Shown piece after piece: positions 12,384 to 55,313 of a stretch of DNA of 64,000 nt. The stretch spans positions 2,604,001 through 2,668,000 of the forward strand of contig JAJFPB010000009.1 in assembly GCA_020881915.1 (NCBI GenBank), given 5' to 3'. Under the pieces are notes generated by a model. The model was not told the DNA's origin. It did not search any database and worked only from the letters and a program-made list of their open reading frames with translations. A program made the translations under genes and the position numbers. The first letter of the stretch is position 1. Each line of letters begins with the position of its first letter. This DNA is from Paramyrothecium sp. XJ0827 (lineage: Eukaryota > Ascomycota > Sordariomycetes > Hypocreales > Stachybotryaceae).

Positions 12384-13763
12384 ATGGATTATAAACAACT
12401 TAGTCTCACCAATGATGAAATCAGGCTCGTTTAAATTACGCCCTCTTCCAGTCCAGATGCTTCTGTGGAGTGTCACCTGTTGCAAACACCTTTGAGCTCA
12501 GCCCAGCAATATGTCGCACTCTCCTACTGCTGGGGAAACCCTACCAATAAAGCCGCCATAATGGTTTCTGGAACTTTGGTACCAGTTACAGTAAGTCTCG
12601 AAAGCGCACTGAAAGATCTGCGCCAAAGAGGGTACCTCGACATCTGGGCCGACGCACTTTGTATCAATCAGAACGACCCAGAAGAGCGGAGCCAACAGGT
12701 GCTGAGAATGGCCTCAATTTACCGTTCAGCATCTAAGGTGGTTTCTTTTCTTTCGTGTGAATTTCCAGAAGACGCAAGCATTTTGTCGACCCTTTTCCCT
12801 CGTGCTCTAAAGGAGGAGCAGGACTCGTTGCGAGTACAAAAAGAATATGAGAGGCTCACCAAGTCACTACCCTCTCGGAAAACCATTTGGCCCCGAACGA
12901 TTCGATCTTCGAGAAAAGATATTCCTCCGCCACCTCCGTTACAAATTGGACTTGACACTCTTGAACACGCAGGGCTCATGAGATTTCTCCACAATCCGTA
13001 CTGGCGTCGGGCCAAGATCATACAAGAAGTGACAACAAACCCAGATCTAGAGATCATCTGGGGTCGTAAAAGTCTTTGAAATAGAGACCTTGGTGAAAGT
13101 TTCGCGCATCGCAGCCAAATCCAACAGTATCCAATGCCCCAGGCAGCTAATTTATCTCCAGACTATCAACCACATTCGAGAGGCCCAGCTGAACATGTCG
13201 CCTCCGTCTATACTGGAGGTCCTAGCAACGACAGCGGATACTGAATCATCGGAAGCACGCGATCGAATATACGCTCTACTTGGAAATACATCTGACGACA
13301 ATATTTTTGTCCCGTTTCCAAGCTATACCCTATCAGATTCAGCAATCAATAAGGATATGACTGTACAAATACTTCGAGTTACCAAGTCTCTCGATTTCCT
13401 CCTTCTCAAGAATGGAGAGGTAGGACCGTGGCTTTTAGACTCGTTTGCTCCCGAAACATTAAGGATTACTGGAGTGTTGATCAAAGAAATCAATGCTTGA
13501 AAAAGATTAGAGCAACCCTCAAATGCCAGATGCGGCTTGGTGTAACATCTGAGGGACGATTAGGATGGTTCAATAGGAATGCAGTTCTTGGTGACAAAAT
13601 CGCAGTTCTGTTAGGGTGTCGGTTTCCAGTTGTGCTTCGGAAATGTGGAAATCACGGCTATTGCATCGTTGGGGAGGCCATCATTCATGGTCTTATGTTT
13701 GGTGAAGCTATGGAATTGAATAAGAAGAGGAGGTTGGGGCCTGTCGAGTTGGTTAGTGCTTAG
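12384..13763 (+). pseudogene. Decayed HET-domain gene
   Basis: A heterokaryon-incompatibility gene with at least three breaks. It starts at 12384 (MDYKQLSLTNDEIRLV) and hits an in-frame TAA at 12432-12434. The same frame then continues with the HET signature YVALSYCWG and LDIWADALCINQNDPEERSQQV, and on to IIQEV, where the Trp that normally precedes this motif is replaced. Around 13058-13079 the frame shifts: the next block, with EARDRIYALLGN, is in another frame and stops at 13500. The C-terminal hallmark (GDKIAVLLGCRFPVVLR, then GEAIIHGLMFGEAME) is in a third frame to 13763, and too little sequence lies between these blocks for an intact protein, so an internal deletion is likely. HET proteins trigger cell death after fusion of unlike strains; loss of such genes is common. 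Confidence 0.85.
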
Positions 13764-16240: not shown

Positions 16241-18333
16241 ATGATGCCTCGTTCATCCCTCGTAGTTGGGGCTGCAGCTCTGGTTGCTTCAGGTTTGTGC
16301 CATGGCCAACCCTTCCGGTTCGTCATTAACATCCAATCGCAGCATCTGCTCAGTCCACGTACTGCGATGACCTTGGTCGATGCTTTGCCTCGGCCGCCGG
16401 GCCTGGTGGCATTACCTTTGGATTTGCCATTCCTGAGACCTCAACCGCCCCCTTCCAGGCCATCGTTCAAGTCACCGCACCCATTGAGGTGGGCTGGGCC
16501 GGAATCGCTTTCTCCAGTCGCATGACGAACGTCCCGCTCGTCGTCACCTGGCCTAGTGGAGATACCGTGAGGGCCTCGCCTCGAGTGGCCTTCTCCTACT
16601 CATTGCCCGGTGTCTATTCCGAAGCCACCGTCAGAGTCCTTGAAGGTTCCACCGTCAACGAGACGCATTGGGTTTCTACTTTCTTCTGCGATGGCTGTTC
16701 CTCATGGTCAGATCTGGCTCCCAACCCACCCAACTCTCTTGATCCGGCGGCGCCAAACCCCTTCGGCCTTGCTTATTCCACAACCCCAGTCAACGACCCA
16801 GAGGACGACAGCACCGGCTTTTCCATTCACAACAGCGCCCAAATCGGCCTTGTGGATCTAAACCTTGCCCAAGCTGCTGAGTTCAATGATTGGATTGGCG
16901 AACAACCCCCAGCCCCCACCTCGGCAACACCCTCAACAACATTCGTTACCTCAACCATCGCTTCGACACCGACGACACCGACCGCTACCGCACCGGGTGG
17001 TCCCCTTCCTATTCCCACATCATGCGGTTTGGAGGGCCAATTCCCCCTCGAGACTGCCGAGGGATGGGGTATTGTGAAGATTGCCGGCAGCCTTCGAACT
17101 CCGAGAGCCATGGCCGTCGACAAGCAAGGCAACCTCCTTGTTATTCACGTTGGCGCCGGCCTCTCAGTTCACACCTTCGACTCGAATGGCTGCATTGGAA
17201 CATCCAAAGTCCTCATCGACCGGCCGCAGCTAACACACGGAGTTGCTCTTTCGCCTGACGGCAAGACTGTCTTTGTTTCCTCTGCGACAACAGTGTGGAG
17301 CTACAGCTATGATGCAGCATCACAAACCGTGTCCGAGGAAACTGTTGTGGTCAGGGACATGTACCCAGCATCACATGTTACTCGAACTCTGGTCATTCCT
17401 CCCGCCACGCCGAACTTGCTGGTAGTGAGCCTCGGAAGTCACACCAACCTTGACGGACCTTCCGTGATCAAGGAGACTGGAAGAGCAATCGTCAAAGTAT
17501 TTGATATCTCGACTCCTCCCAGCGCTGGTTACGATTACAATACCGAAGGCACCTATCTCGGATACGGGCTTAGAAATGAGGTCGCCATCGCCGTCGACAA
17601 CAATAATATGTAAGGCTCCTCGTTGCAATATGGCACGAGTAATAAACTGACACGAAACAGGGTTTGGGGTGTAGAGAACAGCGCCGACAACTTCAACCGA
17701 ACCATCAACGGTGTTTCCACTGAGATTCGTGAAGATAACCCGGCTGAGGAGCTCAACTACCGTAAGTATAAACATGCAGCCTTTTCTTAAGCGACTGTAC
17801 TAATGCTTACTACAGTGGGTGACCCATCCGTGTCCAACGAGGACTGGTATGGATATCCAACCTGTTACACCGTCTGGGGAGGCGAGCAGTTCCCCGATGG
17901 CAACCCAGCCACGGGATCCCAGTTCATCCCTGCTCCCAACTGCACCTTCACCGACGCGACATGCGAGGACCGAAGTGTCCGTCCTCGACTTACCCTCCAG
18001 GCCCACTCTGCTCCCATCGATGCCAAGTTCGACCCGGAGGGCAAGAATCTCTACGTTACTCTCCACGGCTCCTGGAACCGTGATACACCAACGGGCTACA
18101 AGGTCGTCACCATCCCTTTCACCACTAACGAAGAGGGAGGTTACGAACCTGTTGCTGCCCAAGACAGCAGGGACGGCTACGATGACATTGTCTGGGATCC
18201 TCAGACAGACTGCAACAGCTCCAGATGTTTCCGCCCCAGCGGAATTGTCTGGGATTTGGAACACACCCGTCTCTACGTCGCCAGCGATAACACGCGCCAG
18301 GGCGAGATTTATGTGCTATTCAAACGGGCGTAG
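16241..18333 (+). CDS. Secreted AA8 cytochrome-AA12 PQQ sugar dehydrogenase
   Basis: Four exons: 16241-16292, 16343-17609, 17661-17761 and 17816-18333, 645 residues. Only the 50-bp first intron (GTTTGT donor at 16293) joins the frames; it gives a signal peptide ending ASA just before QSTYCDDLGR. Domain order: an N-terminal cytochrome b domain like that of cellobiose dehydrogenase (about residues 20-200), with Met78 in SSRMTNV and His180 in FSIHNSAQIG as candidate axial heme ligands; a Ser/Thr/Pro linker (about 205-240); then a sorbosone/glucose dehydrogenase beta-propeller (about 245-645). There LAHGVALSPDGKTV-like, LRNEVAIAVDNNN and LYVTLHGSWNRDTPTGYKV blades are typical of the PQQ-dependent AA12 family. 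Such enzymes oxidise sugars outside the cell and can pass electrons through the cytochrome to lytic polysaccharide monooxygenases. No CBM1 is present at the C-terminus. Confidence 0.88.
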
Positions 18334-19785
18334 ATGGAGGGAGCAGCAGCGAGGGGCATTTCAAGCAAGCTGTATCTATTTATAAATTTGTAAATATTGT
18401 TAGTCCAATTTGACTTCGTACATATTTTGTCACCCAATGTAGCATCATCATGATACTTAGCTGGCTCGCTATGTCACCTATCATGTACCTGTTGAATCGT
18501 TGATTGATTGTTGTGTTTTATCTAGCCCTCAATATTGGAGATTTTCAGGTATCGATACGCTGAGCCAATTTGATGATAATAATGCTATAATGTGGCTTAC
18601 CTTCAGCCGGAACGAACGTCGTTCATCTGATTGTTTCTCCCATGATACCACGTCTGCATGGGTTACCGAACGCATTATGCCCATTTATTGACCTCTTATC
18701 CCTGTACCTATGACGCTACGGCTCCTTTTCCTCCTCACCGTCGTCTCCATTGCAACATCTCTCACAAACTTAGCCTTGTCCCAGCTTCTTTCCTCGCCGC
18801 CTCTCCGCCATCTCGCCGTGACTCTGGTCTCCTCTTCGGCACTTTGAATATGATTCAGAATCCGTTTCTGGACCCAATTATGGCTATACAACGCAGAATG
18901 ACGGGGTAGCCGCATAGGTCCTGCCGAACAAGAGCAGTCGGCCATCGCAGATGTTCTTCTAGACGTCCTCATGGCGGTAGTCGACCAGGAGCCTGCCAGG
19001 CACGAGATGGGGACGTCAATAATTTTTAGTGTTAGCGTGCTGGGCAGGGGATGTTGCCGAGGACATTATTGGCCACGCTGTTCTTCATGGGTTAGTCCAG
19101 GGTTCCCTAAGGAGCGAGTCAGCACATGGAGTGATTGCAAGACCTGGTGGGCGAACATGTCTGCTCCAACTCCAAGTACTTGCCTGGTTTATGAGGGGCC
19201 AGCCACTGTTAAGGGCTTTTGTAATGGCAATTGTCCCAAAACAAGTGTCCCAAAACAAGGGCCCCAAAACTTATTATAGTCAGTCAAGAGAGAAACTAGC
19301 TCGTCTCGATCGTAGACCATGGCGAAAGAGGTTGAGCAAATGTGGCTCGTTCAGATGAAAAGAAAGACCCGAGAACCCGGTCAAAGTGGAAAATGGAACG
19401 AGAAAAGCCGTAGACATCTTAAATACCACCAAAATTAGCACAGCGCTCTAGTATTGTCATTCGGGGCCGGGATACTTTGTGCCGGTGGGAGGTGGATACT
19501 GTCATGGAGTATTGATGCCCCTTCCCGCCATCTATTTTGAAAGTGCTCTAGTAGAATGCCAGCCTGTCTTGTTGTTGCTGTACTCAAACTTATCAATACG
19601 GAGTAAGCATCCGTTTTCAGGAATATTTACTGTGAATTTAATCTCTCGACTTAATGACTATCCCGACTTCCCTCTGAAAAGTCCACAATCTTATCATCTA
19701 CGACACGTGAGTTGAATGGAATATGTTCCACCCTATTGCATTATAAGTCGTCGCTCCTTTTCCATATGATTCAATACGGGAAGAC
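18334..19785. other. Intergenic region, nothing recognised
   Basis: About 1.45 kb between the 3' ends of the AA8-AA12 gene and the UstYa-family gene. A 46-codon hydrophobic frame (18710-18848) exists but has no supporting feature. A short duplication, TGTCCCAAAACAAG next to a near copy, lies near 19231-19260. Confidence 0.45.
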
Positions 19786-20766
19786 TTACCATCTGTCAAA
19801 GGCCCAATCTCGTACTGCTGCGAAGTTTCGACAGGTGTGTGGTTGTCCAACACGAGGTGTCAGGGCTGGTGGACTTTTATCCGTCCTCCAAAAATACCAT
19901 TGCACTGTGGTGTCGGCTGTACAAATTAAGCGCTGTCGAATAATTTCCACGCAATGGTCTATATAATGTCAGCTGGCTTGTTGCCACAAATTTATATGAT
20001 TCATACCCATGTGTAGCCACTGTAAATAATCGAGGGTGCCATTGGCATTATACATGGACATATTGTATCTTTCAGGATAAAAGCTCATGCGGATCATGTT
20101 CTGATTTGTTAGTTGTACCAGTCATCAATTGTCTTAGTACGGTTTTGGTCGCTTACTAGACAATGTAGCTGGTGGAAGACATCCAGCCCGCCAAGATAGT
20201 AACTCTCTAGTCCCGGAACTGGAATTCTTTCCACATCTTCTGGGACATCATCTTTTTCCAAGTCTTCTGGGGAGATCTTGATCCCCACTCCGTCTAATAC
20301 GACATTAGCCTGGTTGATTTGGTGCAGCACGGCTCCAGACTTGGGTTGCTTACGCTTGTACAAATCTTCCCAGAGTTCATCTGTTCTATCATTGGGTACG
20401 CCCTGGTACTCCGTAGTGTCGTTCCCAAAAGCGTCATTTAGTTGGATAGTTTCGTAAGAGACTATGCTCCCTGCAGGTGCTTATATAAACTTGTTAGCCA
20501 GTGTTCAGTAGCATGAAGATGGTCAACTTACAAGGACCAAGACTAGGGTCAACGCACTCTCGTTGTGTACGGATATGTTGCACCACAAGCGCAACAATGA
20601 GAACAATATTCAAAGAGTATGACAGGAAGTTCCAGCTGCTTTGATGTCGTCTTTTTAGTAATGTGTGGACGTCGTGCAAAAGACCTTGTTCTTCTGATTC
20701 ATGTTCGGATTCGGTGTCTCCCGCAGGATTCTCTGACATCTTCTGATAGTCATTGGAGTATGCCAT
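19786..20766 (-). CDS. UstYa-family (DUF3328) oxidase-like protein
   Basis: Four exons, 20766-20532, 20479-20157, 20100-20007 and 19958-19786, with introns of 52, 56 and 48 bp that all keep phase, 274 residues. An acidic, cytosolic N-terminus is followed by one membrane span (about residues 46-62) and a lumenal domain with the family motif SPAG after the first intron. Both copies of the HxxHC signature are present: HQLHC (181-185) at the end of exon 2 and HMDHC (216-220), split by the last intron. UstYa/UstYb proteins carry out oxidative macrocyclisation in ustiloxin, asperipin and phomopsin biosynthesis, on precursors passing through the secretory pathway. The gene lies head-to-head with a repeat-bearing secreted peptide gene 834 bp away, the expected substrate arrangement. 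Related proteins also act in other pathways, so the substrate link is inference; the family call is firm. Confidence 0.9.
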
Positions 20767-20948
20767 AGTTGCTGTAACGTACAGCACGGACTGAAAAATA
20801 CCATGCACCTCAGAAATGGAGGGCCTAAAAGCATTGAGTTCCCTCGAGGCAGTGGAGCGACCCAGTCAGCTGCCGAGAAGCTACCTTTGTAACCTCTTTT
20901 ACCGCTTATCAGATTCTCCACCGTGACAGCCCACCACTCCCACGCCAG

Positions 20949-21053
20949 TAAGTCAAGGGAAGTAAAAGCGGATAGCCCTAAAAGCTGACAGCCCCTTACG
21001 TTGGTTCACCAAATTACCCTATGGGGCTGTCAGCTTCTTACTCCCTTGACTTA
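20949..21053. repeat. Inverted-repeat (MITE-like) element
   Basis: Left arm 20949-20995 begins TAAGTCAAGGGA and ends AAGCTGACAGCCCC; right arm 21023-21053 reads GGGGCTGTCAGCTTCTTACT and ends CTTGACTTA, the reverse complement of the left arm minus a ~17-base insertion. The loop contains the perfect palindrome TTGGTTCACCAA (21001-21012). The structure could fold as a long hairpin and looks like a small non-autonomous element or its footprint, placed in the shared upstream region of the UstYa-family and repeat-peptide genes. Confidence 0.7.
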
Positions 21054-21600
21054 GAGGCTTGGCATAGGAACAAGGGTCTCTGTGATAGGGCATCTTACGA
21101 GAAATCAGTGATATGAGCCTTACTTGATCTGCAACTTCCGCTTAATAGGAAGGTAACATTCAAGAAAGCGCATGCTCAAACCATGTGCGATACCATGCGT
21201 CGTACATTTGACCATTCGGTTAACGTCTCACAGCATTATCAAGCGCTAAAGGATTCATGCAGTGGGACTTGGTGCTGATCTCGGTCATTATAACCAGCAG
21301 AAGATACGACGCTTCTCCTTTCATTGAAGCCTTGAAGTCCAGAACCCGAGGAGACCGCTCTTGGCAGCGCGTATCATCCCGCCCCAGAAGGCCTCGTTGG
21401 ATTCATTACAGAAAGTCTGATAAGGAGGAGCTTAGTATAAGTATCACAAAGTCTCCAGCCCATACCATCTAAGAGACAACGGAATACTAGCAAAGACTCA
21501 TTCGATTACTCATTCACAGGTAGCAAACTTCCATCCTTCACACCGCCCTCTTACCCTCTTTTCAACGCAAAGTCCTGACTCCTGTAGACCACTTACCAAT

Positions 21601-21885
21601 ATGAGGTCTTCTATTGCGGTCGTCTTACTTTCTGCCGTTGGCATGGTTGCTTCTGCACCTGTTGCCACGCAAGAGACTGTCAAAGGAAATGCTGATGCCA
21701 GAGAAAAGCCCTCTATCTGGCTGCGTGAAGAACAAACTGGTGCGGATGCTAGAGAGAAGCCTTCGATCTGGCTACGTGAAGAGGAAGCTGGTGCGGATGC
21801 CAGAGAAAAGCCCTCGATCTGGCTGCGTGAAGAACAAACTGGTGCAGATGCCAGAGAGAAACCTTCAATTTGGCTCCGTGACTAA
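21601..21885 (+). CDS. Secreted tandem-repeat peptide, candidate RiPP precursor
   Basis: Intronless frame of 94 residues. A signal peptide (MRSSIAVVLLSAVGMVASA, residues 1-19) is followed by a short leader and four near-identical 17-residue units with consensus ADAREKPSIWLREEQTG, starting at residues 31, 48, 65 and 82; the last unit is cut short after WLRD. KPSIWLR is invariant in all four; only the Q/E-T/A pair after the glutamates varies. Signal peptide plus repeated core is the plan of dikaritin precursors (ustiloxin UstA, phomopsin, asperipin, epichloecyclins), which are cut from the repeats and cyclised by UstYa-type proteins, one of which is encoded head-to-head upstream. Unlike those precursors it has no Lys-Arg kexin sites; the only basic borders are single Arg residues (AR-E and LR-E), so processing would be atypical. 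A secreted multi-copy signalling or pheromone-like peptide is the main alternative. Confidence 0.8.
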   Translation: MRSSIAVVLLSAVGMVASAPVATQETVKGNADAREKPSIWLREEQTGADAREKPSIWLREEEAGADAREKPSIWLREEQTGADAREKPSIWLRD

Positions 21886-22722
21886 AATGTCGATCGGAAA
21901 CCCGACAGAAGAGTTAAATTAAGGTCGATTTAGGTACTAGTTATCAACTTAAACACTGTTTCTTTTGCGATTCAAGGTGCCTAAGTGGAGAAGGATAAGG
22001 GCATGTGATAAATACCTTTTGCGTCTGCCCTTCTTACATCCCTTTAAATTTGAAGGTCTCCTCAAATTCGGTGTTCTTGCGGACTCATTGCCGCAAATAA
22101 AAGAGATTGCGCCATTTTGTCCCCCGGTCACCTCATTCTGCCCCGAGCCCTATTGCATGATTCTCAAGGCATGATGCGGCCCCTAGAATTACAGCAGATT
22201 CTGCTTAGGGTTCGAGCTGGTCATGGATCTTTGATAAGAATTGCCTCTTTCAGTAACTTCACTGATTTGGATATTTGCTGCATTATTAATCAGCACTTTT
22301 ACATGCATCACCCGCTGCCACCTTGCAATCACCGACCTCGTGTTGCTTAAAATCTGCCACGAAGCCCGTCATTGTAGGGAATATGAGAATTATTATCTCA
22401 AAGAGTTCTTACTTTCGTGCATTCTTGTAAGACCTGTTGAACGAAGCACGCCGTAGACGCGTGATCTCTTACAAATGATCCTCTTACAAATGATCAAGTG
22501 TCGAGTCTCTGGAACGGAATCCTGGGGCGCTTGAGGTTCATCTGATGTAGTCCTACCGGAAGTTGTGGGCGAGAAGGCTGTACTGTCCAAGTTGAAGTGA
22601 GGTCAACAGGAACACTTATTCAATAATGAATACATTGCCATGGCTTCCTCCACTGAAACCATATTAGAAATAACTAAATACAAACTGATGCATTTCATGG
22701 TTACCTAATTTCGTATTAGAGT
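21886..22722. other. Intergenic region, nothing recognised
   Basis: About 0.8 kb between the converging repeat-peptide and hydrolase genes; it has short frames only. A short direct duplication, CTTACAAATGATC, occurs twice near 22469-22496. Confidence 0.45.
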
Positions 22723-23679
22723 CTAGAGCTGAAGAAACAACAGAACTTGCTGTGCAAAGTGAGTCGCATATTGGAAAAGGAAACCATGGCCGCTGTTGGG
22801 GTAAATAATGAGCTGGCCATTGGGAACTGCCTGCTGAATAAGGTAACTGTTCGAGGTCGGGATCATGTAGTCGTCCTGTTGCACAATGTTAACATACATT
22901 CGAATTTTAAAGCCGGTTCGAATACCTACATGTCCATTGGCCACCAACACAGGGATCTTTAAATCTTGCAGACGATCGTAAGCGCCCTCGAGACCTTGGC
23001 TTGTCTCCGATTGAGTAAAGGCTTGGCCCTGCTTCACCTGTGCCAAAAGTCCTTTGCCCTGATCACGGAAACCATTGCTAAGCCACTCAGCAGGTGTCTC
23101 GCCACTGGTGGCCTCACTGCGTTCGTGAATTCGGGCCCACCAGGCTTCGGTGGCAGCATTTCCCTCCCTGTTCTTGGGGAAGAACAGAGTCTTGAAAACA
23201 TCAACGTTGACATTCTGCACACCGGCCACGGATCCAACATCATCGTTCGGAGATACGGCAAGATTAGGTCCGTAGCTTGTTCCAGTGCCAGTGAGAATCA
23301 GTTTGCGAATCTTGACCTTGGTAGGATCCGCGTTGAGTGCAATTATCTGAGCAACATAGCCGCCGAGACTGAAGCCAAGAAGATCTACCTCGGTCTCCCC
23401 GATGAGCTCCAAAAATTGAATGATATCCGCTGCAGACTGGCGAATCGTGGTAGCCACTTCACCAGTGCTTAGTCCAACTCCAGCATAATCAACAGTGATT
23501 ATAGGTCGACTGGCGGCGAGACTGTTGATGAACAGTGGGTCCCACTTATCCATGACTCCGCGGAAGTGAATCAAGAGGACTAGAGGGGTGCCAAACCCCG
23601 TACCGAGACGTCGATAAGCAAACCGAGCCCCGTTTGGTGCTTCGACATACTTTGTTGGTGCTGTCTGTTGGGTGGACAT
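22723..23679 (-). CDS. Alpha/beta hydrolase
   Basis: The frame is open for 318 residues, but a 54-bp in-frame intron (22929-22876, GTAGGT donor, CAACAG acceptor) is likely. Removing it joins LVANGH to DDYMIPTSNSY, the usual acid-loop motif of the family, and gives 300 residues in two exons (23679-22930, 22875-22723). Fold landmarks: PLVLLIHFRG (oxyanion strand), then the nucleophile elbow LLGFSLGGYVAQ (Gly-x-Ser-x-Gly), DDYMIP with the acidic residue, and the catalytic His in NSGHGFLFQ near the C-terminus. No signal peptide is present, so it is probably cytosolic. The closest fungal relatives are uncharacterised hydrolases similar to bacterial haloperoxidases/esterases. It is the next gene after the repeat-peptide gene, transcribed toward it; membership in the same cluster is possible but unproven. 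Confidence 0.88.
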   Translation of the reverse strand: MSTQQTAPTKYVEAPNGARFAYRRLGTGFGTPLVLLIHFRGVMDKWDPLFINSLAASRPIITVDYAGVGLSTGEVATTIRQSAADIIQFLELIGETEVDLLGFSLGGYVAQIIALNADPTKVKIRKLILTGTGTSYGPNLAVSPNDDVGSVAGVQNVNVDVFKTLFFPKNREGNAATEAWWARIHERSEATSGETPAEWLSNGFRDQGKGLLAQVKQGQAFTQSETSQGLEGAYDRLQDLKIPVLVANGHVGIRTGFKIRMYVNIVQQDDYMIPTSNSYLIQQAVPNGQLIIYPNSGHGFLFQYATHFAQQVLLFLQL

Positions 23680-24700
23680 CTTTGGTAGCCAGCACGTTTC
23701 CTGCTTTTTAAGAGAATGGCTGAATGCAAGTAGTTACGAATTCCGTGGTGTTTGTGTTGATCCATAATTGCAATTTTGACAGGCTAACCGACTCTTAAAT
23801 GAAATACACCGACCAGCAACTGGACGCGACAAGCTCTATATCTACGTCTGTTCACTAATCCATCGGTAAGTGTTTAGTAGGTCCGAGATTGTGATTAGTG
23901 ATCCATTCGACCGATTACAAAACGTCTTCAGGTGACGGAGCCCAGGACACGCCGCCTTGAATGCAGGCGGTTACTAACGTACACACTTCGCTTATTCTTT
24001 AGATTGATTGCATCACGCTTCGCCTATCAGATGTTGAGGAAATACTAATGATGCGGGCAGCTGGATCCTTTTTAGAAGTATTACCATTCTCGGCCTGATT
24101 TGTGATGCGGAGCGAATATTAATCACAGACCAGTCTCTAGACATTCTCACTGATGATTGGCCAAAAGACAGACAACAGCGGGTCTCCTTATGTTCTTGGA
24201 AGTGCGAATCAGAGAAGCCCAAAAGACTACAAGTTATCCAAGTTATCCGGCCAGAATTACTGTGGCCAACAGCCACAGGCTAGATGTTTGATACGTCAGT
24301 ATCGAGTACTTTGTGCGTCACCGCCGGTTGCGGTTGGACTTCATCAAAGATTCTAAGAGTGCTGTCATATTGAAGGATCATACCGATGCAATGCTATATA
24401 TATTGAAGACGCACGAGATGTTAACAAATCGACCTGAGCAACTCAGTTCATTTTCCACCGACCTTGAAGTTGGTGATGGTAAAAACACGAGCGATTTCGC
24501 TAACTTGCTATTAAAGGTACAGCGCAGGCCCAGGAGTCTTCCAGCTTATTGTAGATCCGTAGACGTCGAACCCAAATAATTAGACATCGGAATTTCTATA
24601 CGACTGGGATGCAACCATACCGTTACTGCCCTTCGACTCGGCATCTTTGCCATAGTCACCTCCTTTGTCTTGATCTGCAGTCTGGCATACCTCTGGGTGG
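23680..24700. other. Intergenic region, nothing recognised
   Basis: About 1 kb with small frames only, including the promoter side of the hydrolase gene. Confidence 0.45.
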
Positions 24701-24820
24701 ATGAAGTGCCACAGAAGTGGATGAAGTGCCACAGAAGTGGATGAAGTGCCACAGAAGTGGATGAAGTGCCACAGAAGTGGATGAAGTGCCACAGAAGTGG
24801 ATGAAGTGCCACAGAAGTGG
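24701..24820. repeat. 20-bp minisatellite, six perfect copies
   Basis: Six head-to-tail identical copies of ATGAAGTGCCACAGAAGTGG, with partial extension (GTGG) to the left. The 20-bp unit is not a multiple of three, so the frame read through it rotates; the minus-strand frames spanning it are repeat artefacts. Perfect identity suggests recent expansion, so copy number probably varies between strains. Confidence 0.95.
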
Positions 24821-26732
24821 AATTATGCAATTCGAGACCGTGGGCATTGTGCGAATAGAAGTCTGCAGCAAAGTAATGTGCTGCCTGTGCCTGTCCGGAT
24901 GTTGCCTGACGATCCTTGTTCTTTCTTATCAAAAGAGCTCAATGGTGAACGCCTGAGACCTTAACGTCGGAGTTCTGGTTACAGGTAAGGAGAGTTTTGC
25001 TTGAATAGACATGCCTGCGGCTTTATGAGCCCGTATTTTCCACCCTGCCCTAGTAGCGTCGAAAATAGACATAAGGAGAGACCGTTCCGGATCTGCCGAT
25101 CGTGTTTAATCCTCCGCCCTTTGGTCATTCGGGGGTCACGTAATCAAGGCATTGCGCCCGAATCATAAAGTATACCACACGCAGTGCATGTCCACGAGGC
25201 AAGCCTCCAGAAAGCGATGAATAACGACAGGTCCACATTCCATGTTCATTTCCACAACCCATGCCCTTGTCTGTCTCTACATCCGGCTTCAGTGTCCTCG
25301 GAAAGCTTTTGCAGCGGTGCATGGGTGTGCGTCTTGTGTTTATTTCCCAATTCCCGAATAGGAACATTCAGCTCTATACTTCAACGCCAGCCTGTATTAA
25401 GGAATTTCAAATGACGGAACTGATGGTCGCTGCTTGGAATTTAAATCAGGCCAATACGAGGTCATCTAAAGGATGTTTACGTACCGAATCAGCCATTTCT
25501 ATCCATATCTGTATTTCTGCACCGGGACAGGAAAGTCTAGACTGCCTGACCATGTAAGCCACAACGTTTCCGTTTTATTGCCTGGAGAGAAAAGAAGTGA
25601 CATTTCCAGCTCATCTCGAACGTTTGTCAGGAATATTTTTGGTAGATTATGGCTACTTAAGCGTTGTATTCTTGTCGACCAACCGAGCTGTCGAAATGAG
25701 CAGACATGCATGAAGTACATTGTCATGACGGGCAGCAGTTATGTGCGCTAGGCGCTGATCTTTCTTGGCCAATTTTCTGACATCACGGTTAAATCATGAG
25801 AAGAGACACGGCAGTTGACTTTCCTGCGGGCCTGAACTACGGCTCAAATCTGCATGCAACTCGGTGAATTAGTTATGCAACGTCCAGTGGCCGACTATCA
25901 CCGCCAAGAACTTTGCGCGTACCCTGAGTGAGGCTGACATTGAATACAGACTCGGTAAAGGTTCAGCCATGTCTCAGACGCCTTTACATGATGTGGTCAG
26001 GCTGGGGTTTTCCATGTCATGCAGGCTGTCCAAAGAGGAACCTGCACGGACTCCCCGTTGCAGAATACGACTCTGTTAGTGGCTGCCTGGAATTCTTTAA
26101 ACGGTCCTGCAAAAGGCCTGGGGTTCCCACATTGGGCTCAAGACCGGACCTATCGGATTTGTCGGCTGCTTCAGCATTGTAGGTGTATGCTTATTCGGGT
26201 ACCGACCGCCCGACTTCGACTCGCTCCACCTCCGCGGGAAGCTGAACGCAGCTAGATGCAGTCCCTTCCTCCCAAGCAGAGCCACTTTGGCGCATCGGCC
26301 GGCATCAAAAGAACCAATAGGAAAGAACACCGTTTCTCACAAGGCAGCGCCGTACCAATCACGGCACAGCAAATAGCGCCACAATCTGGTGGAGACGCAC
26401 CCGGGCAAACATGGCGGTGACGGGCCGATCAGGTACGCCCAGCAAAGGTTGCATATGGACCATAGTTGTTATGTGATGTTTAATTTCGTAACGCGCGACG
26501 AATAGCTGAGGCCCCTGCCGCGGCATGATGACGATGCATCGAACAACACCACAGAAAACAGAGCTGAAGTTCTCCAAATTAGGAAGTGCAGCACCATAAC
26601 GCCCACCGTGGTTTCAATATTATGCATGTTCTGCTTCGCGGTTTGCAATATCAACGGTGATGGTTGCAATATCAAATTGATCAATATCACCAACGTGACT
26701 CAAGGAAGCTTCCGGGGCAGGGCTTCTCGAGA
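24821..26732. other. Intergenic region, nothing recognised
   Basis: About 1.9 kb of scattered short frames on both strands with no motif, signal peptide or splice chain that I could follow. Confidence 0.45.
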
Positions 26733-26739
26733 TATAAAT
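26733..26739 (+). promoter_or_regulatory. TATA box of the GLEYA-domain gene
   Basis: TATAAAT about 95 bp upstream of the ATG at 26835, with a CA/CT-rich stretch between them, as in many fungal promoters. Confidence 0.5.
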
Positions 26740-26834
26740 CAGGGTCGATTTCGTGTTCAGACGACACTCGACACATCAACCACAACTCTCCCTTCCTCAG
26801 CACCGTCCTACAGATCCTCCAGGCTCATAACATC

Positions 26835-28034
26835 ATGAAGTACACCTTCCTCGCGGTTGGCCTCGCCAGCATCACAGCCGCCACAGACATTTGTCAGAAC
26901 AACTGTGGTCGTGCCGTCGCTGGAGCAGGTAGAAATCCTGCTTTTGACGCTCGTTCCTCTCTGTGCTCGGCCTTTGTGACGACAACGACAACAGTTACTG
27001 CCCCGTAAGTTTACTCCCGCATTATCTTTTCAGCTGAAACTGACTCAGGTCGTTCTACCTGTAGTCCCACCACTATCACGGGTCCTATCATCTATAATCG
27101 CAATGTCCACGATGAGCGAGCCCCCGAATTGACTGCAGCGGGTCTGAGTGCTGCTGGTCTTACTGCTGCCGGTCTTACTGCCGCTGGACTCACCGCGGCT
27201 GATGCGACCGCGGCTGGTGTTAGCGCTGCTGCCACCGCGGCCGCCGTGACCGGCGAGAAGCCCGCGTATGCCTCTGCTTGCCCCAACGCCGAAGCCTACT
27301 GGAGCGCTTGCCAGTGCATTAGCGGCGTCAAGGCTACCGTTGTGACCGTCACGGCTCCAGGCCCGACGGAGACGGTCGCAGGTCCAACTTGCACCCAGGG
27401 CCTTGAGTACGCCATCTACGGTCCCCTTGATGGGACTGCCCAAAGACAAAACCTTATCGATGCGGTTCCCTTGGGTCATCAGCATATCGATCTTGCACTT
27501 CAATTCTCCGGCGTGGAGCCTGATGTCACAGGTGTCACTCCGTCTATCGGCACAATCGTCCAGTTCACCGATGACTACACTGTTCCTGTCAGCTTATACG
27601 GTAAGACTGGCCCTGCTGGCTCAGAGATGGGTCTCAGCATTGTCTCCCACCGCGGTCATCTCCTGCCCGCCGTGGCAGGCCTCTATACCCTCTTGCTCGA
27701 GACCTCAGACAATGCCGTCTATGCCTGGGTTGGTGATACCGCTGTCTCCGACTGGACCTTAGCCAATCCCTCCGTCAGCCGCTTCTGGCCCCCCGACCCC
27801 GCCGAATCGTACACATATTCATTTGAAGTTCTTGAGGCAGACCTCGGCAAGCCTATTCCATTCCGTATCACTTGGATGAACTACGGCGGCCCCGGAGCAT
27901 TCAGCGCTAGTCTGGTCGACCCTCAGGGCAATGTCATTTTGGGTGCCAACACCCAGAAGAGCCCACTTCTTCTTACTGGTTGCACGGGTATCGATCTTGT
28001 CCCAGATTGGGTGCCCTGGGCCGAAGAGATCTAG
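26835..28034 (+). CDS. Secreted GLEYA-domain (adhesin-like) protein
   Basis: Two exons, 26835-27004 and 27065-28034 (60-bp intron, GTAAGT donor), 379 residues. A signal peptide (MKYTFLAVGLASITAATD) precedes a small Cys-containing region. Next comes an Ala/Gly-rich tract (about residues 75-115) with short repeats of AAGLT, then a second Cys segment (ACPNAEAYWSACQC) and a domain starting CTQGLEYAIYGPLD at about residue 155. The literal GLEYA motif and the following WVGDTA and FRITWMNYGGPGAFS strands match the GLEYA/PA14-like adhesin module, which in fungi binds ligands at the cell surface (yeast flocculin-related). No GPI anchor signal is visible at the C-terminus, so it is probably released or wall-bound by other means. 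Confidence 0.82.
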
Positions 28035-35809: not shown

Positions 35810-37322
35810 TTCTAAGAGCAAGCGGCAACTGTACATATCTTTGAGTTGTGATTCATCATCGATCGGCGCATCACATGCGGCGATGGATATTCTCGGACAG
35901 ATGCATCCTCTGACGAGCGATCAAAAATCTCAAATACCTGAATGCTCAGAAAATCCAAATGACAAACGCAGGGAGAAACCCATCAGGATTTTATTAATAT
36001 GTGCAAGCTATGACAAGTGGTGCGAATCTTCGCCCTAGGCAACAAGGACAGTCGCTTGAGAAGGCCTAAGTAAACAAGACTTGATCATCTAGAGCCAGGT
36101 AACTAACACGCTTTTATTGTAAGAAGGTAATTAATGAGAGACTTGGAACACTTAAAGCTGATTTACGATCGATAAACTTTTGGAATTCTTCGTTCAGGCA
36201 TCGAGAGATTGGTGCTTCGGAGGCATGACATTTACTCTCGGGCTGAGTCTTGGGATGGTACCTGACCCCATCACCATGTCTCTTCTGGCCAGTGTTTGTT
36301 TCCGAGCCATCCATCTGTCTTGGGTCGAGTCTTTCTCTTCATGAAAAAGTGCCATGCTTCCATTCTTCCTCGTTTAATGCATGTCCTCGCTATTTGTCTA
36401 GTTTGTCTCAAGCACTTGAGCAATTTCATGCTCGCTTGACTCCAGGGTAGCTAGACAAAAGGCAAAGGCACGTCATTTCTGCCACACCCAGGGTTTGCTG
36501 TGGACGCATGAGTTCGGCACACAAGATTACAAGTGTACCTGGCCTTCAGCCCTATAGGGTGATGCGGCCTCAAGCGGCAACTGAGCAAGCCCAGTATTGT
36601 GGAAGGTCTCGTTAACGACTCGACAAGGGGCCAGGCGGCCGGCCTTAAGTGAGTAGTCGACTGCGTCGCCTCAGACGAGCGTTGCACCCGCCAATACTTG
36701 CCCCAAGCATGACTGGCTGAGAAAGTCTACGGAGACGATGAAGCTAAGAACTCGACATGGCATCTTGTTCTGAAGTAGAGAAAGGCCTTCCCCGAAAAAA
36801 GTACTTAGTGAACGTATCACATTGAGCCGGTAATGACACCAGATATCAAGAGTTGGGCCTAGAGAGATAAGACAGCTCATCCGAAAAATACCGATAAGTG
36901 GCTTGAAAGGACGTTTGATGAGTGCCGAACTTGTCCCTCGATATGCAAGTGCCAAGCTGAGTAAACAGAGGGGCCTACGTTGACTGGTTAGGGATCCAGC
37001 ACGAGAGGAGCTGAGTGGTGCATACCGAGGCTTACATGCATGTTTTCACGCATGAAGGCGTAAATCGTTACCTAAATCAGACTTTCAGCTGCCCTCCGTC
37101 AATATTTGTGTTTGGCACATAGGTCGCAATTCGTTGAGGGGCGGCATGGGCTTAAATTAAGCAAAGTGACTGTGTCGGAGAAGGAGGATGCAATACAAAG
37201 AGAGAGCGGAGCCGCGAAAATGGCGATTCGACTTTACCATATAGATTCCCGACTCCCACCGATCCACTTGATATCACCAAATTCTTGATCAGCCATTTGG
37301 TCTCACATCAATCTTCACCACG
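35810..37322. other. Intergenic region, nothing recognised
   Basis: About 1.5 kb with short overlapping frames on both strands and no supported gene. Confidence 0.45.
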
Positions 37323-39703
37323 ATGGCACACGAAGAGGACTGGGAGACGGAGCCGTCAAGTTCATCACAATCAGACACAACAGATATCGACGAGTCCACC
37401 TTAGCACTCCTCGAAACACCTTTATTACTTCCCGTACCTCCCGATGCGGCATGCCAGGGTGATGAATTGTGCGATATCTGCAAGGAGCTAAAGCTTGCCC
37501 CAAGGAGCTTTGTGGTGCTGGAGGGCGACAAGGAGTACAACAATGCCAACGAACCTGACGAGCTGAATATTTCTCTGGGCAAAGTAGAGGACATTGCCAA
37601 GAAGACTAGCTGTCCTCTTTGCCGTCTTGTGTTAGTAGCCCTCGGAGGGGATAAAGTACCATTCCGTGAGGATGGAGAGTCTGTAATTGTCGACTTGAGC
37701 TGGAATACCGACGGACCAATCCCGGATGCTGATGCACCATGGAACCATACGCCAGAGGTTCGATTACTGCGCCCTTATGCTCGTATAGCCTCTGGAGACT
37801 TTCTTCGGTCTAACACACTCAACCTTTTCCCTGAGATCACCTTGCTTGCCAATGACTCGCCCACGTTGTCCATCTCCTATTTCGTTCGCCCTATACCGAG
37901 AGACAAAATCGACTTTGGGCTTGTGAGAAGATGGATGGCGATCTGCCGCACACGCCACCAAAGATCGTGTCGGGAGAACCCTGTTCTGAAAGAGCTGAGG
38001 CGGTCACATCCTGCTATTGAGATTCCAGAGTTTCGATGCATAGATGTCGAGCAGAAATGCCTAGTTCAGCTGGGCGCTGGTGAACGATACGCGGCTTTGA
38101 GCTACGTTTGGGGCCGCAGGAAATTCTTTAGAACCTTGCAAAACAACGTCGTCGATCTTGAACGACCGGGCGCTCTTACTGAAGACAAGTATTCCTATCA
38201 AATTCCCCCAACAATCAGAGACGCGATCCATGTGGCACACGAGATAGGCTTGAGATACTTGTGGGTGGACAGCTTGTGCATTATCCAGGACGGTGACGCG
38301 GAGCACAAGGGTTATGCTATCAAAGCCATGGATTTGGTTTATGCCGCAGCAGATATTGTAATTGTTGCAGCTGGTAGTACTGATGCGTACTCAGGCATTC
38401 GCGGTATCTATCCAGGGTCTCGCGGCGTTCGACAGCCTATTGAAGAGATACCGGCTGAAGACAACGAGACCGGCCAGGCTTTCCGACTTGCCTTCAAGAC
38501 AAGATGGCAGGATGGGATTGAGAGGACTCCGTACTATACAAGAGGATGGACGTGAGTGTTGTTGTGGCATTTTCATTCCGGATTACACAGCTGACTGGTA
38601 GCAGATTCCAAGAGACACACTTTGCTACCCGATCACTGGTCTTCCTTGATGGAAGGGTCACATTCAGATGTCAAGCAGACAGTGACTGGCAAGAGGACCT
38701 GTTCGAGCCCGAAACTGAGACTACAAGTGATGAAAATGATGATCACAGGCCTTTCGATGACGATGATATTGGCGAATATGAGGGACTCATTCAAACTTTC
38801 TCGGACAGAGTTCTGTCATTTGATTCAGACATTTACAATGCTTTTGCTGGTGTGTCTCGTCAGCTTTCGTTCCGGATGCATTCGAACTTGGTTCACGGCA
38901 TACCGGCTCGTTACTTCGACTGGTTCCTTCTTTGGTATCCACTCGCTGATCAGACTCGTCGGCCTAATGCTCCGAGCTGGTCCTGGTCTGGGTGGATCGG
39001 AGGCTGCTTCCCTCGCATCTGGGATTGGTATGAGAGAAGCATTTCGAGTGTGAAGCGCGCCATTCAGCAAAGAACATGGATCATTTGGTATCAACGTTCT
39101 GGGCATGACACTGAAGCTTGCACGCTTATTTTCGAGCATGGGAAAAGCCACAAAGGCTCATTGAAAAAGACAAATTTTTACGGCGGTCTTACGCATCCAC
39201 GCTTTGCCTTGGATTGCACCCGCACGGAGCCAACCATCAAAAGATTAAATGGCGGCGATGCAAAGCCCCCAGTATACTCAGTGGATATTCTCAACGAACA
39301 ACCAGGCTCGGGATTTCTCCAATTCTGGACAGTGTCCATTACACTTAGCCTCAACGAACCCACCAGCATCGATGATGACAAGGGACCATCGCATAGCAGA
39401 CACCGACTCGGAATCTACGGTCGCACTGGCCGAGAGCTTGGTACCATTTCAGTTCATTCCTGGTGGCTAGAAGAAAACCCAGTTCCACAGGAGCGTGAGT
39501 TCATCTTGATCTGCGAAGGGAGGGATAAGAGGGCTGAGGTAGGCCGGGCCGATGACGATGAGGAAGGATGGAGGTACATGGTCATGCTCATTGAGTGGCA
39601 TGGTGAGTATGCTGAGCGGGTTGCCATTGGATCTATTGGCAAGGAAGATCTTGAGGAAGCTCTGGGAACGGGAATAGCTTGGAAGGAAATCATTCTTGGG
39701 TGA
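37323..39703 (+). CDS. HET-domain protein, intact
   Basis: Two exons, 37323-38551 and 38605-39703 (53-bp intron), 775 residues. The intron is fixed by restoring the conserved TRGWTFQET motif across the junction. A Ser-rich acidic N-terminus is followed by paired Cys motifs (LCDICKEL and SCPLCRLV), common before HET domains in this group. The HET domain runs from about residue 250 with YAALSYVWG, LRYLWVDSLCIIQDGD, AADIVIVAAGS and RGWTFQE. The C-terminal part has an acidic run (DDDD) and NAPSWSWSGW, typical of this subfamily. Such proteins mediate or modulate cell-death responses on fusion of unlike individuals; the protein is presumably cytosolic. Unlike the HET copy at 12.4 kb, no break is visible. 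Confidence 0.92.
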
Positions 39704-40509: not shown

Positions 40510-40932
40510 CTAGATTCTCGCAGATCCAACAGTCTGGGTGAAGCAGGTGAAAATAGGGGTATCCGGGGCCACAGTGACGGACTGGCCAGTACAGCCAGGC
40601 TGGCTGAAGAGGGTGACTATGATTTTTTATGAGTAAAATTAATATAGCATTGCTAATAGACTAGCATTCCACGTACCTGGTGATGTAATGTCGGTGACCT
40701 GCCTGACCCTCCAGCTAGGATAGGAGCCTACATGAGTAGCGGCCGCTTGGCAGACTCCGGCATTCTGGAATTGAGTAAAGACTTGAGAGTCTTGCAATGA
40801 GCCCTGGCAGTTGGGCTGGTTGAAAAATTGAATCAAGAAGATGCCAAATGGCTCCTGGCGCTCCTCGAGGACGGGAGCAGCAGTAACGCCAATAGTAGCG
40901 ACAGCAAGGCTGAGAAGACCAGAGAACTTCAT
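40510..40932 (-). CDS. Small secreted cysteine-containing protein
   Basis: Two exons, 40932-40677 and 40616-40510, with a 60-bp intron (GTACGT donor, CATAG acceptor), 120 residues. Without splicing the frame ends after 97 residues in AT-rich intron sequence; splicing instead adds a coherent tail (VTLFSQPGCTGQ) with two more cysteines. A signal peptide (MKFSGLLSLAVATIGVTA) and a short pro-segment are followed by a compact domain with four cysteines (PNCQGS, GVCQAA, PGCTGQ, FTCFTQ) and the motif SYPSWRVRQV. It belongs to a recurrent type of small fungal secreted protein with CQGS/SWRVR motifs whose function is unknown; effector-like roles are possible but not shown here. Confidence 0.82.
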
Positions 40933-41032
40933 TTTGGATAAGAGGCGGGATATAATTCAAGAAAGATGTCTTAAGAAGAACCGTGATGGAGACCTGTTGT
41001 GTAGTTTCAAGTTTTTGAGATAGTCATGCCAT

Positions 41033-54422: not shown

Positions 54423-54943
54423 GTTGGTAGAAAGGAAAGCCCCCAGAGCTTCAAAATATATTTAGCATCACCGAGTTATTGTTGTTTATGTTGAAACAAC
54501 AAGACTAATAAATTCAGTTGTAACACGAATCTTTACCCGTCTCACTAACACAAAATCTTACCCATCTTACCAACACGACCAATCTGAAAGTAATTTTAGA
54601 GTCGTGTGTCTAATGTTGGTAAGACGAAAAGCCCTTAGAGCTTGAAAATATAATTAGCATCACAGAGTCATCGTTAGTTACATTAAAACAAGCGGACTAA
54701 CAAATTCACTCCCAACACAAATCTTACCTATCTTACCAACACGACCAATCTGAAAGTAATTTTAGAGTCGTGTGTCTAATGTTGGTAAGACGGAAAGCCC
54801 TTAGAGCTTGAAAATATAATTAGCATTACAGAGTCATCGTTAGTTACATTAAAACAAGCGGACTAACAAATTCACTCCCAACACAAATCTGAACACATCT
54901 CACCAACACGACCAACCTAAAGGCAATATTAGAGTCGTGTCTC
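54423..54943. repeat. Tandem ~166-bp repeats with internal palindromes
   Basis: Three units in direct order. Two are nearly identical (period 166 bp, e.g. GTCGTGTGTCTAATGTTGG at 54601 and 54767); the left unit is diverged and carries an extra partial duplication (offset about 192 bp). Each unit contains an inverted pair, CTTACCAACA...TGTTGGTAAG (54567-54576 with 54614-54623; 54732-54741 with 54780-54789), that encloses a second pair CACGAC...GTCGTG. The right end at 54934 keeps only part of this. No coding potential is seen. Confidence 0.85.
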
Positions 54944-55313
54944 TTCAAATTGAGAGAATGCGTAGTGGGAGAAAACGACAGAGTAGCCGCGTGATCCGTG
55001 TATTCCTTGACTAAAGACCCCAGTCGGACCCCAAAAGCCCCCATTCGGACCCCATTGTGCGCGCGCATGTGCCACATGAAACAGCAATTGTTAATAAGGT
55101 ATTTTAAGAAACTCAGCTTCGAGGAGGATTGATGGGTCAAGTCCTCCACGAGGGATTTGATCCAGCTATATGTATTCTTAAGCGTAGTTGGCTAATGATC
55201 AAAGTCTCCGTGTTAGAGCCAAACCAAACCTATACATCGGATGTTGATTTCCGCTGTTCATTCTCCGAATTTGTTTTGAAGCTCCATTGTCTCGCCATCC
55301 AACTCGCAGTACT
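54944..55313. other. Intergenic region before the ankyrin gene
   Basis: About 370 bp. Short near-repeats of CGGACCCC occur around 55020-55055, next to an alternating TGTGCGCGCGCATG tract. Confidence 0.4.

Follow-up and report, generated by a model that had tools for sequence, protein, structure and literature searches.

A candidate dikaritin-type RiPP pair: a UstYa-family oxidase gene head-to-head with a tryptophan-containing repeat precursor free of dibasic sites

The window analyzed here, a 64-kb stretch of DNA (C15:2604001-2668000, in a genome of 51.8 Mb on 15 contigs that is fungal by its UstYa and HET genes and its introns), harbors a UstYa-family (DUF3328) gene on the minus strand and a repeat precursor gene on the plus strand. 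The two genes are divergent, with start codons at 20766 and 21601 and 834 bases between them (Table 1). A sequence-only reading had described this head-to-head pair of a UstYa gene and a signal-peptide repeat precursor, and had interpreted it as a dikaritin-type pair with a Trp core and a putative cyclic product. The observation is confirmed here with a corrected gene model, and the interpretation is partly supported.

Table 1. Positions of the paired genes and their features within the window
Feature	Position	Strand	Remarks
UstYa-family (DUF3328, PF11807) oxidase gene	19651..20766	-	six exons, 277 aa; gene model, Pfam, paralog introns
UstYa exons	20766-20532, 20470-20354, 20293-20157, 20100-20007, 19958-19790, 19732-19651	-	
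Single hydrophobic span, presumed membrane anchor of the UstYa protein	20572..20637	-	approximately residues 44-65; hydropathy scan
First HxxHC motif, HQLHC	20160..20174	-	residues 158-162 of the UstYa protein
Second HxxHC motif, HMDHC	19951..20013	-	residues 193-197; split by intron 20006-19959
Shared upstream region	20767..21600	.	834 bases; contains inverted repeat 20940-21062
Repeat precursor gene	21601..21885	+	single exon, 94 aa
Signal-peptide-like N terminus, MRSSIAVVLLSAVGMVASA	21601..21657	+	hydropathy 2.64 over 11 residues; cleavage point by eye
Invariant 12-mer ADAREKPSIWLR, unit 1	21691..21726	+	
Invariant 12-mer ADAREKPSIWLR, unit 2	21742..21777	+	
Invariant 12-mer ADAREKPSIWLR, unit 3	21793..21828	+	
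Invariant 12-mer ADAREKPSIWLR, unit 4	21844..21879	+	one Asp and the stop codon come next

The UstYa gene is real and intact. Its corrected 277-aa model matched PF11807 with 148.6 bits, the curated Pfam cutoff being 25, and both HQLHC and HMDHC are present; the H, H, and C of the two motifs were unchanged across 17 aligned proteins. Hydropathy scanning revealed one hydrophobic stretch only, and the protein thus displays the two HxxHC motifs and the single N-terminal membrane span of its family. The 3' end previously placed at 19786, however, had to be abandoned: the stop codon there falls inside an intron, and the gene runs on to 19651. The earlier 271-aa model with this end scored 138.3 bits and, when aligned with its relatives, lacked a C-terminal tail and harbored an insertion of about 20 residues, because the introns 19789-19733 and 20353-20294 had not been removed. 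The first of these introns leads to a last exon encoding RVVDDKIVD (RVVEDKIED in the C12 paralog), and the second is 60 nt long and without an in-frame stop. All splice sites are predictions, picked by eye from the GT/AG consensus and homology. A search for PDB chains similar to the UstYa protein, performed with the 271-aa model, returned none at E values up to 1.

The precursor is a real gene as well. Its product consists of the signal-like start, three copies of ADAREKPSIWLREEQTG (with EEEAG in the second), and then ADAREKPSIWLRD, and the 51-nt period was recovered independently by Tandem Repeats Finder. Of the four near-identical 17-residue units reported before, three are full, but the fourth ends at 13 residues; similarly, KPSIWLR is kept in all units, but the invariant part is longer and comprises the 12 residues of ADAREKPSIWLR. 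The four 12-mers are identical as peptides, although their coding sequences vary in 8 nucleotide columns. This variation takes at least 11 changes, every one of them synonymous and at a third position. Taking 26 of the 103 possible non-stop changes to be synonymous, the chance of this pattern is about 3e-7 when counted by changes and 2e-5 when counted by columns. In pairwise comparisons of the units, spacer included, synonymous changes amounted to 0.17 to 0.75 per site and nonsynonymous ones to 0 to 0.06. The exclusively synonymous changes in the 12-mers indicate that the precursor is a translated protein and that its peptide is under selection.

Trp is the sole aromatic residue of the repeat, and Tyr, Phe, His, and Cys are absent from the whole 94-aa precursor. 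The unusual feature of the pair is its lack of dibasic sites, which mark known precursors: no KR, RR, KK, or RK occurs across the 94 residues, and even a relaxed kexin pattern has no match in the precursor. One kexin-type P-domain was found by searching this genome. The hydropathy and repeat scans revealed a putative signal peptide followed by repeated cores, as in dikaritins, and at least three near-identical repeats with a 17-residue period after the signal peptide, as in Kex2-processed repeat proteins (KEPs). Because no dibasic pair separates the units, the precursor nevertheless falls outside the KEP definition of Le Marquer 2019.

We then examined the surroundings of the two genes. The UstYa-family gene adjoins the precursor, as in dikaritin clusters. 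The inverted repeat in the shared upstream region has 39-nt arms that are 77% complementary, inner 17-nt arms that are 94% complementary, and a small tandem duplication. It is transposon-like, yet its own place was its only match in the genome (in a DNA search that passes over very frequent words, with up to 3 mismatches tried), and we rejected a mobile element between the genes. Running Pfam on all six frames of positions 18301-27002 (E up to 0.01) revealed only the UstYa gene and an alpha/beta hydrolase gene, which adjoins the precursor at 22723-23679 on the minus strand. Since this hydrolase had no match at an E value of 1e-6 in the stretches around the other UstYa loci, we kept it out of the cassette. 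When all window ORFs of at least 60 aa were compared with 25 UstYa-locus stretches (L018-L042) at the same threshold, matches were obtained only for UstYa exons, a frame opposite them, two HET-domain ORFs, and ORF 40642-40956. The two HET (heterokaryon incompatibility) domain ORFs lie at 12435-13076 and 37272-38552 of the window, and both match a stretch of L039 that is located a few kilobases from the C12b UstYa genes. An oxidoreductase gene at 16330-18333 combines a cytochrome domain like that of cellobiose dehydrogenase with a TrAA12-like domain.

The tyrosinase domain PF00264 had no match in the 64-kb window, in line with what had been noticed before, and the nearest matches are on C15 at 1997842 and 3065707, more than 390 kb from the window ends. 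The pair lacks the tyrosinase required for ustiloxins and phomopsins, and with its one UstYa gene it had been regarded as possibly minimal or incomplete. It need not be incomplete: a tyrosinase is reported not to be universal among dikaritin clusters (PMC12048977), and asperipin-2a of Aspergillus flavus also combines a repeat precursor with one DUF3328 gene only (PMC7329392). Four genes are described as sufficient for asperipin-2a production (PMC10512285). Unlike what is expected for the window pair, asperipin-2a harbors a Tyr-to-Phe ether cross-link (PMC12186524), and its pathway involves a transporter and a reductase (PMC12048977), neither of which was detected by Pfam in positions 18301-27002.

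We next studied the other UstYa genes of this genome. Twenty-eight UstYa exon matches were grouped into 15 loci including the window, and 10 to 26 kb were fetched around each of the 14 others (10 kb at C10, C12b, C8c, C7, and C14). A strict scan of 300 kb over the 15 loci, looking for ATG-led single-exon frames that begin with a hydrophobic stretch and contain internal repeats, returned exactly three proteins, namely, the precursors of the window, C12a, and C8a. All three harbor Trp in every unit and are divergent from a minus-strand UstYa gene at about 0.8 to 1.2 kb, the distance to the nearest UstYa span being 835 bases for the window precursor, 1174 bases for C12a, and 974 bases for C8a. 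The C12a precursor contains 3 dibasic kexin sites and the C8a precursor contains 9, while the window precursor has none. The C8a precursor (C8:562272-562814; L032:3772-4314; UstYa match at C8:560684-561298) resembles the window precursor in being head-to-head with its UstYa gene, encoded by a single exon, and provided with a Trp in each unit, but its units are NNQAGWG with KR or RR sites. In our tree, the C8a UstYa groups with P0022 (Purpureocillium), P0028 (Fusarium), and P0030, apart from the window gene.

A looser scan, without the demand for a signal peptide, added repeat ORFs at C5, C9a, C9b, C1, C10, C12b, and C8c, and none was accepted at C11, C9c, C8b, C7, or C14. Nine of the 14 other UstYa loci thus carry a repeat ORF (10 of 15 with the window), a count made with score thresholds that varied (17, 9, 10) and after dropping antisense, low-complexity, and plainly longer proteins by eye; C10 and, above all, C12b with its two units are weak cases. 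The C8c unit contains both Trp and Tyr, and the other six ORFs from the looser scan have no Trp in the parts shown. The adjacent UstYa and precursor genes are divergent at seven of the nine other loci (C12a, C8a, C9a, C9b, C1, C10, and C12b) and codirectional at C5 and C8c. With repeat ORFs at 10 of 15 loci, the pairing is unlikely to be due to chance, the control for this count being confined to the remainder of the window and the sequence flanking the UstYa loci. In a published survey, DUF3328 genes are reported to peak at the position adjoining repeat-precursor genes (PMC7329392).

This pairing bears on the idea that the window precursor yields a linear secreted repeat peptide, similar to a signal or a pheromone, and that the UstYa protein serves another substrate. 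Such a peptide would be in keeping with the single-Arg units, which resemble simple protease substrates, and with the 6120 of 7878 fungal repeat precursors reported to have no UstYa gene nearby, among which W is as frequent (PMC7329392). We nonetheless consider it improbable: the precursor has the UstYa gene as its direct divergent neighbor, similar pairs exist at other UstYa loci of the genome, and in the same survey, precursors annotated as mating factors or pheromones are, with three exceptions, without a nearby UstYa (PMC7329392).

Among the repeat ORFs found next to other UstYa genes, the core is HHQGAKTN in L025:7151-7792, AVAYGRHTDDVP in L027:7105-8079, GDPILDIN in L035:1891-2445, and DSDEAVVYPASVDQTWVDA in L040:6956-7198. 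The one at C5 (L023:4921-5685) lies amid several UstYa genes and carries DADAAEKYKLY units, which resemble the DADAATXYV[A/V]D type of Le Marquer 2019. ADAREK of the window precursor is similar to DADAAEK at C5, and two C5 unit forms agree with the window unit at 6/17 and 5/17 positions, a similarity that 2.5% and 6.2% of shuffles also attain before any correction for multiple comparisons. Unlike the window precursor, the DADAATXYV[A/V]D type is described with a Tyr core and KR.

The C12a pair turned out to be the sister of the window pair as far as the UstYa gene is concerned. The C12a UstYa gene (C12:706286-705204) encodes a predicted 258-aa protein sharing 45% identity with the window protein over 227 residues, and each of the two genes has five introns in the same order and at corresponding positions, with phases 1, 1, 0, 1, and 2. 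They were sisters with a support of 100/97 in a tree of 45 rows, consisting of the window protein (271-aa model), C12a, 15 paralog rows derived from exon matches, and 28 database proteins. Database hits under 180 aa in length or ranking after P0030 did not enter the tree, nor did the C7, C8b, and C14 paralog matches or the additional gene matches at C5, C8c, C10, and C12b. Several of the paralog rows are long-branched. Using the earlier models, C12a outscored all 67 database proteins against the window UstYa (201 bits, next 179), with 41.0% identity over 229 residues; P0002 reached 44.5% over 191 and P0006 46.6% over 131. Among the database proteins, the closest to the window UstYa gene are P0001 (Cudoniella acicularis), P0002 (Apiosordaria backusii), P0003 (Aphanocladium album), and P0004 (Akanthomyces muscarius). 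In a single-exon search of the same genome, the top score apart from that of the window gene belonged to a match on C8 (31% identity, 87.6 bits). It ranked above the C12 exons, which are 54% and 50% identical but shorter, because the C8 match is one long exon. The sister status assigned to C12a rests on the tree and on the whole-protein scores.

The C12a precursor (C12:707460-707792) is encoded by a single exon head-to-head with the C12a UstYa gene and has a signal peptide and three units reading (S)AD(G/E)AFFV(I/V)NW, followed by KR or KKR. As in the window precursor, Trp precedes the final Arg by two or three residues, but the core is FVINW and there are three units. When the C12a unit is laid in register on ADAREKPSIWLR, AD, W, and the last R coincide, and NW-KR of C12a faces IW-LR of the window. 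We regard this register as no more than suggestive. The units agree at 4/13 positions, which is equaled by 6.3 to 7.0% of shuffles, and unit homology was therefore rejected as independent evidence, so that the homology of the two precursors rests on their position and gene pairing. The leaders are alike at 9/30 positions, a likeness that may be due in part to signal-peptide composition. A MAFFT alignment of the whole precursors was set aside, as it placed the repeats out of register.

The same register raises the question of whether the window pair is a decayed cassette that lost its dibasic sites, L having replaced the K in front of the final Arg in each unit, and has ceased to give a mature peptide despite the survival of both reading frames. 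The precursor is indeed without any dibasic site, IW-LR stands where C12a has NW-KR, and no relatives of the precursor were found. However, the 11 minimal changes in the 12-mers are all synonymous, so that Leu-Arg is kept under selection in every unit; the UstYa gene retains an open reading frame with its splice sites; and the register is itself weak, since 6 to 7% of shuffles equal it. Decay thus appears very improbable to us. The reading as a dikaritin-type pair is strengthened by the sister UstYa gene at C12a, which agrees with the window gene in arrangement and exon-intron structure, and by the existence of a third pair of the Trp type.

Relatives of the precursors were then sought in sequence databases. 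For the window precursor, none was found at E values up to 1 among 2575 word-sharing candidates from 5.8 billion proteins, and for the C12a precursor, none at E values up to 10 among 124 word-sharing candidates from the protein database. Within its own genome, the window precursor matched only itself, and in the fetched UstYa loci, it had no match at 1e-6. Restriction to a lineage and missing gene models are both possible reasons. The cores PSIWLR, NNQAGWG, EKYKLY, YGRHTDD, and GDPILDIN were absent from the main texts of the literature searched.

Taken together, we propose that the window pair is a two-gene dikaritin-type RiPP cassette in which the peptide is released at single Arg residues and the core is oxidized, most likely with a link at Trp, and we assign a probability of about 0.7 to this reading. 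The signal peptide would take the 94-aa precursor into the secretory pathway, where it would meet the membrane-anchored UstYa protein, presumably a dicopper oxidase by virtue of its two HxxHC motifs, in the lumen of the Golgi or nearby. Oxidation of the core units by the UstYa protein would most likely create a side-chain bond to the indole of Trp. Up to four copies of a peptide around EKPSIWLR would be freed by a protease that cleaves behind single Arg residues, namely, those ending DAR and WLR. The calculated [M+H]+ of EKPSIWLR is 1028.589 for the linear form, 1026.573 with one cross-link, and 1024.557 with two. Copper, location, and oxidation are transferred to the window UstYa from its family, where CctR, a DUF3328 protein, is described as dicopper, O2 dependent, and membrane anchored, with its HxxHC part proposed to lie in the lumen of secretory organelles (PMC12435403), and where DUF3328 proteins are reported to be needed for cyclization of the ustiloxin, asperipin-2a, and phomopsin cores (PMC7329392).

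Cross-linking at Trp and cleavage at single Arg are the most tentative parts of this scheme. The peptide ends are uncertain, single Arg residues being the only sites on offer. If a ring is formed through an aromatic side chain, as in ustiloxin, asperipin-2a, and phomopsin, it must use the indole, since Trp is the sole aromatic residue, and the product would probably be oxidized and cross-linked at Trp. Trp as the reactive residue is still a guess, because W is not enriched in precursors with UstYa (it occurs in the repeat of 20.5% of 1758 DUF3328-linked precursors versus 24.5% of the others; PMC7329392) and the open-licence literature searched yielded no example of a Trp cross-linked by a UstYa protein. 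Cross-linking of Trp is reported for some products of the plant burpitide cyclases, those of the lyciumin type (PMC12186524). Their BURP-domain enzymes use copper with four planar His residues (PMC12435403), but they belong to another protein family and to other organisms, and the analogy is limited to the chemistry.

The UstYa protein could instead hydroxylate, halogenate, or desaturate Ile, Leu, Pro, or Lys, the product then not being macrocyclic. Hydroxylation and halogenation have been ascribed to DUF3328 members (PMC12435403), a DUF3328 desaturation is described in phomopsin (PMC10512285), and a core without Tyr or Phe would fit such chemistry. The closest analogy, however, is the asperipin-2a repeat pathway, which has a single UstYa and yields macrocycles, and we therefore judge this outcome rather unlikely.

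The window pair belongs to a recognized class, that of signal-peptide repeat precursors beside UstYa genes. In a survey of 1461 strains, 1758 of 7878 KEPs were accompanied by DUF3328 genes (PMC7329392), and such KEPs share with the window precursor the signal peptide, the near-identical repeated units, and the adjoining UstYa gene. They differ from it in having Kex2 sites (KR, RR, or KK) between the units (PMC6339444). The survey of Le Marquer 2019 requires dibasic sites, and it also allows for kexin cutting elsewhere in some fungi and finds kexin sites in almost all, but not all, ust-RiPS precursors (PMC6339444). The Trp core had been considered unlike the Tyr-based ones; Trp is indeed the sole aromatic residue, but precursors with Trp next to UstYa genes have already been surveyed (PMC7329392), and repeat types such as YVW and XSDW are listed by Le Marquer 2019 (PMC6339444). 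According to a 2022 review, only five dikaritins have been reported (PMC10512285).

We tentatively go one step further, on a conjecture that we would not yet favor, and envisage that the genome carries a small family of minimal Trp-specialized UstYa-precursor cassettes, the product of the window cassette being linked from the indole to Ile, Leu, Pro, or Ser and released at single Arg residues. If this is true, surveys demanding dibasic sites would miss such single-Arg-cut precursors, and if the peptide is made, the dibasic-site rule of genome mining will have been shown to leave out precursors. With one oxidase, a short and clear core, and two more Trp cassettes in the same genome, the compact pair offers a convenient test of UstYa on Trp.

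Two further tandem repeats were noticed in the window. One, at 24697-24821, consists of 6.2 perfect copies of a 20-nt unit, a length not divisible by three, and no signal-led repeat protein emerged from the strict scan at this place; the other, at 54547-54944, has 2.4 copies of a 166-nt unit at 93%.
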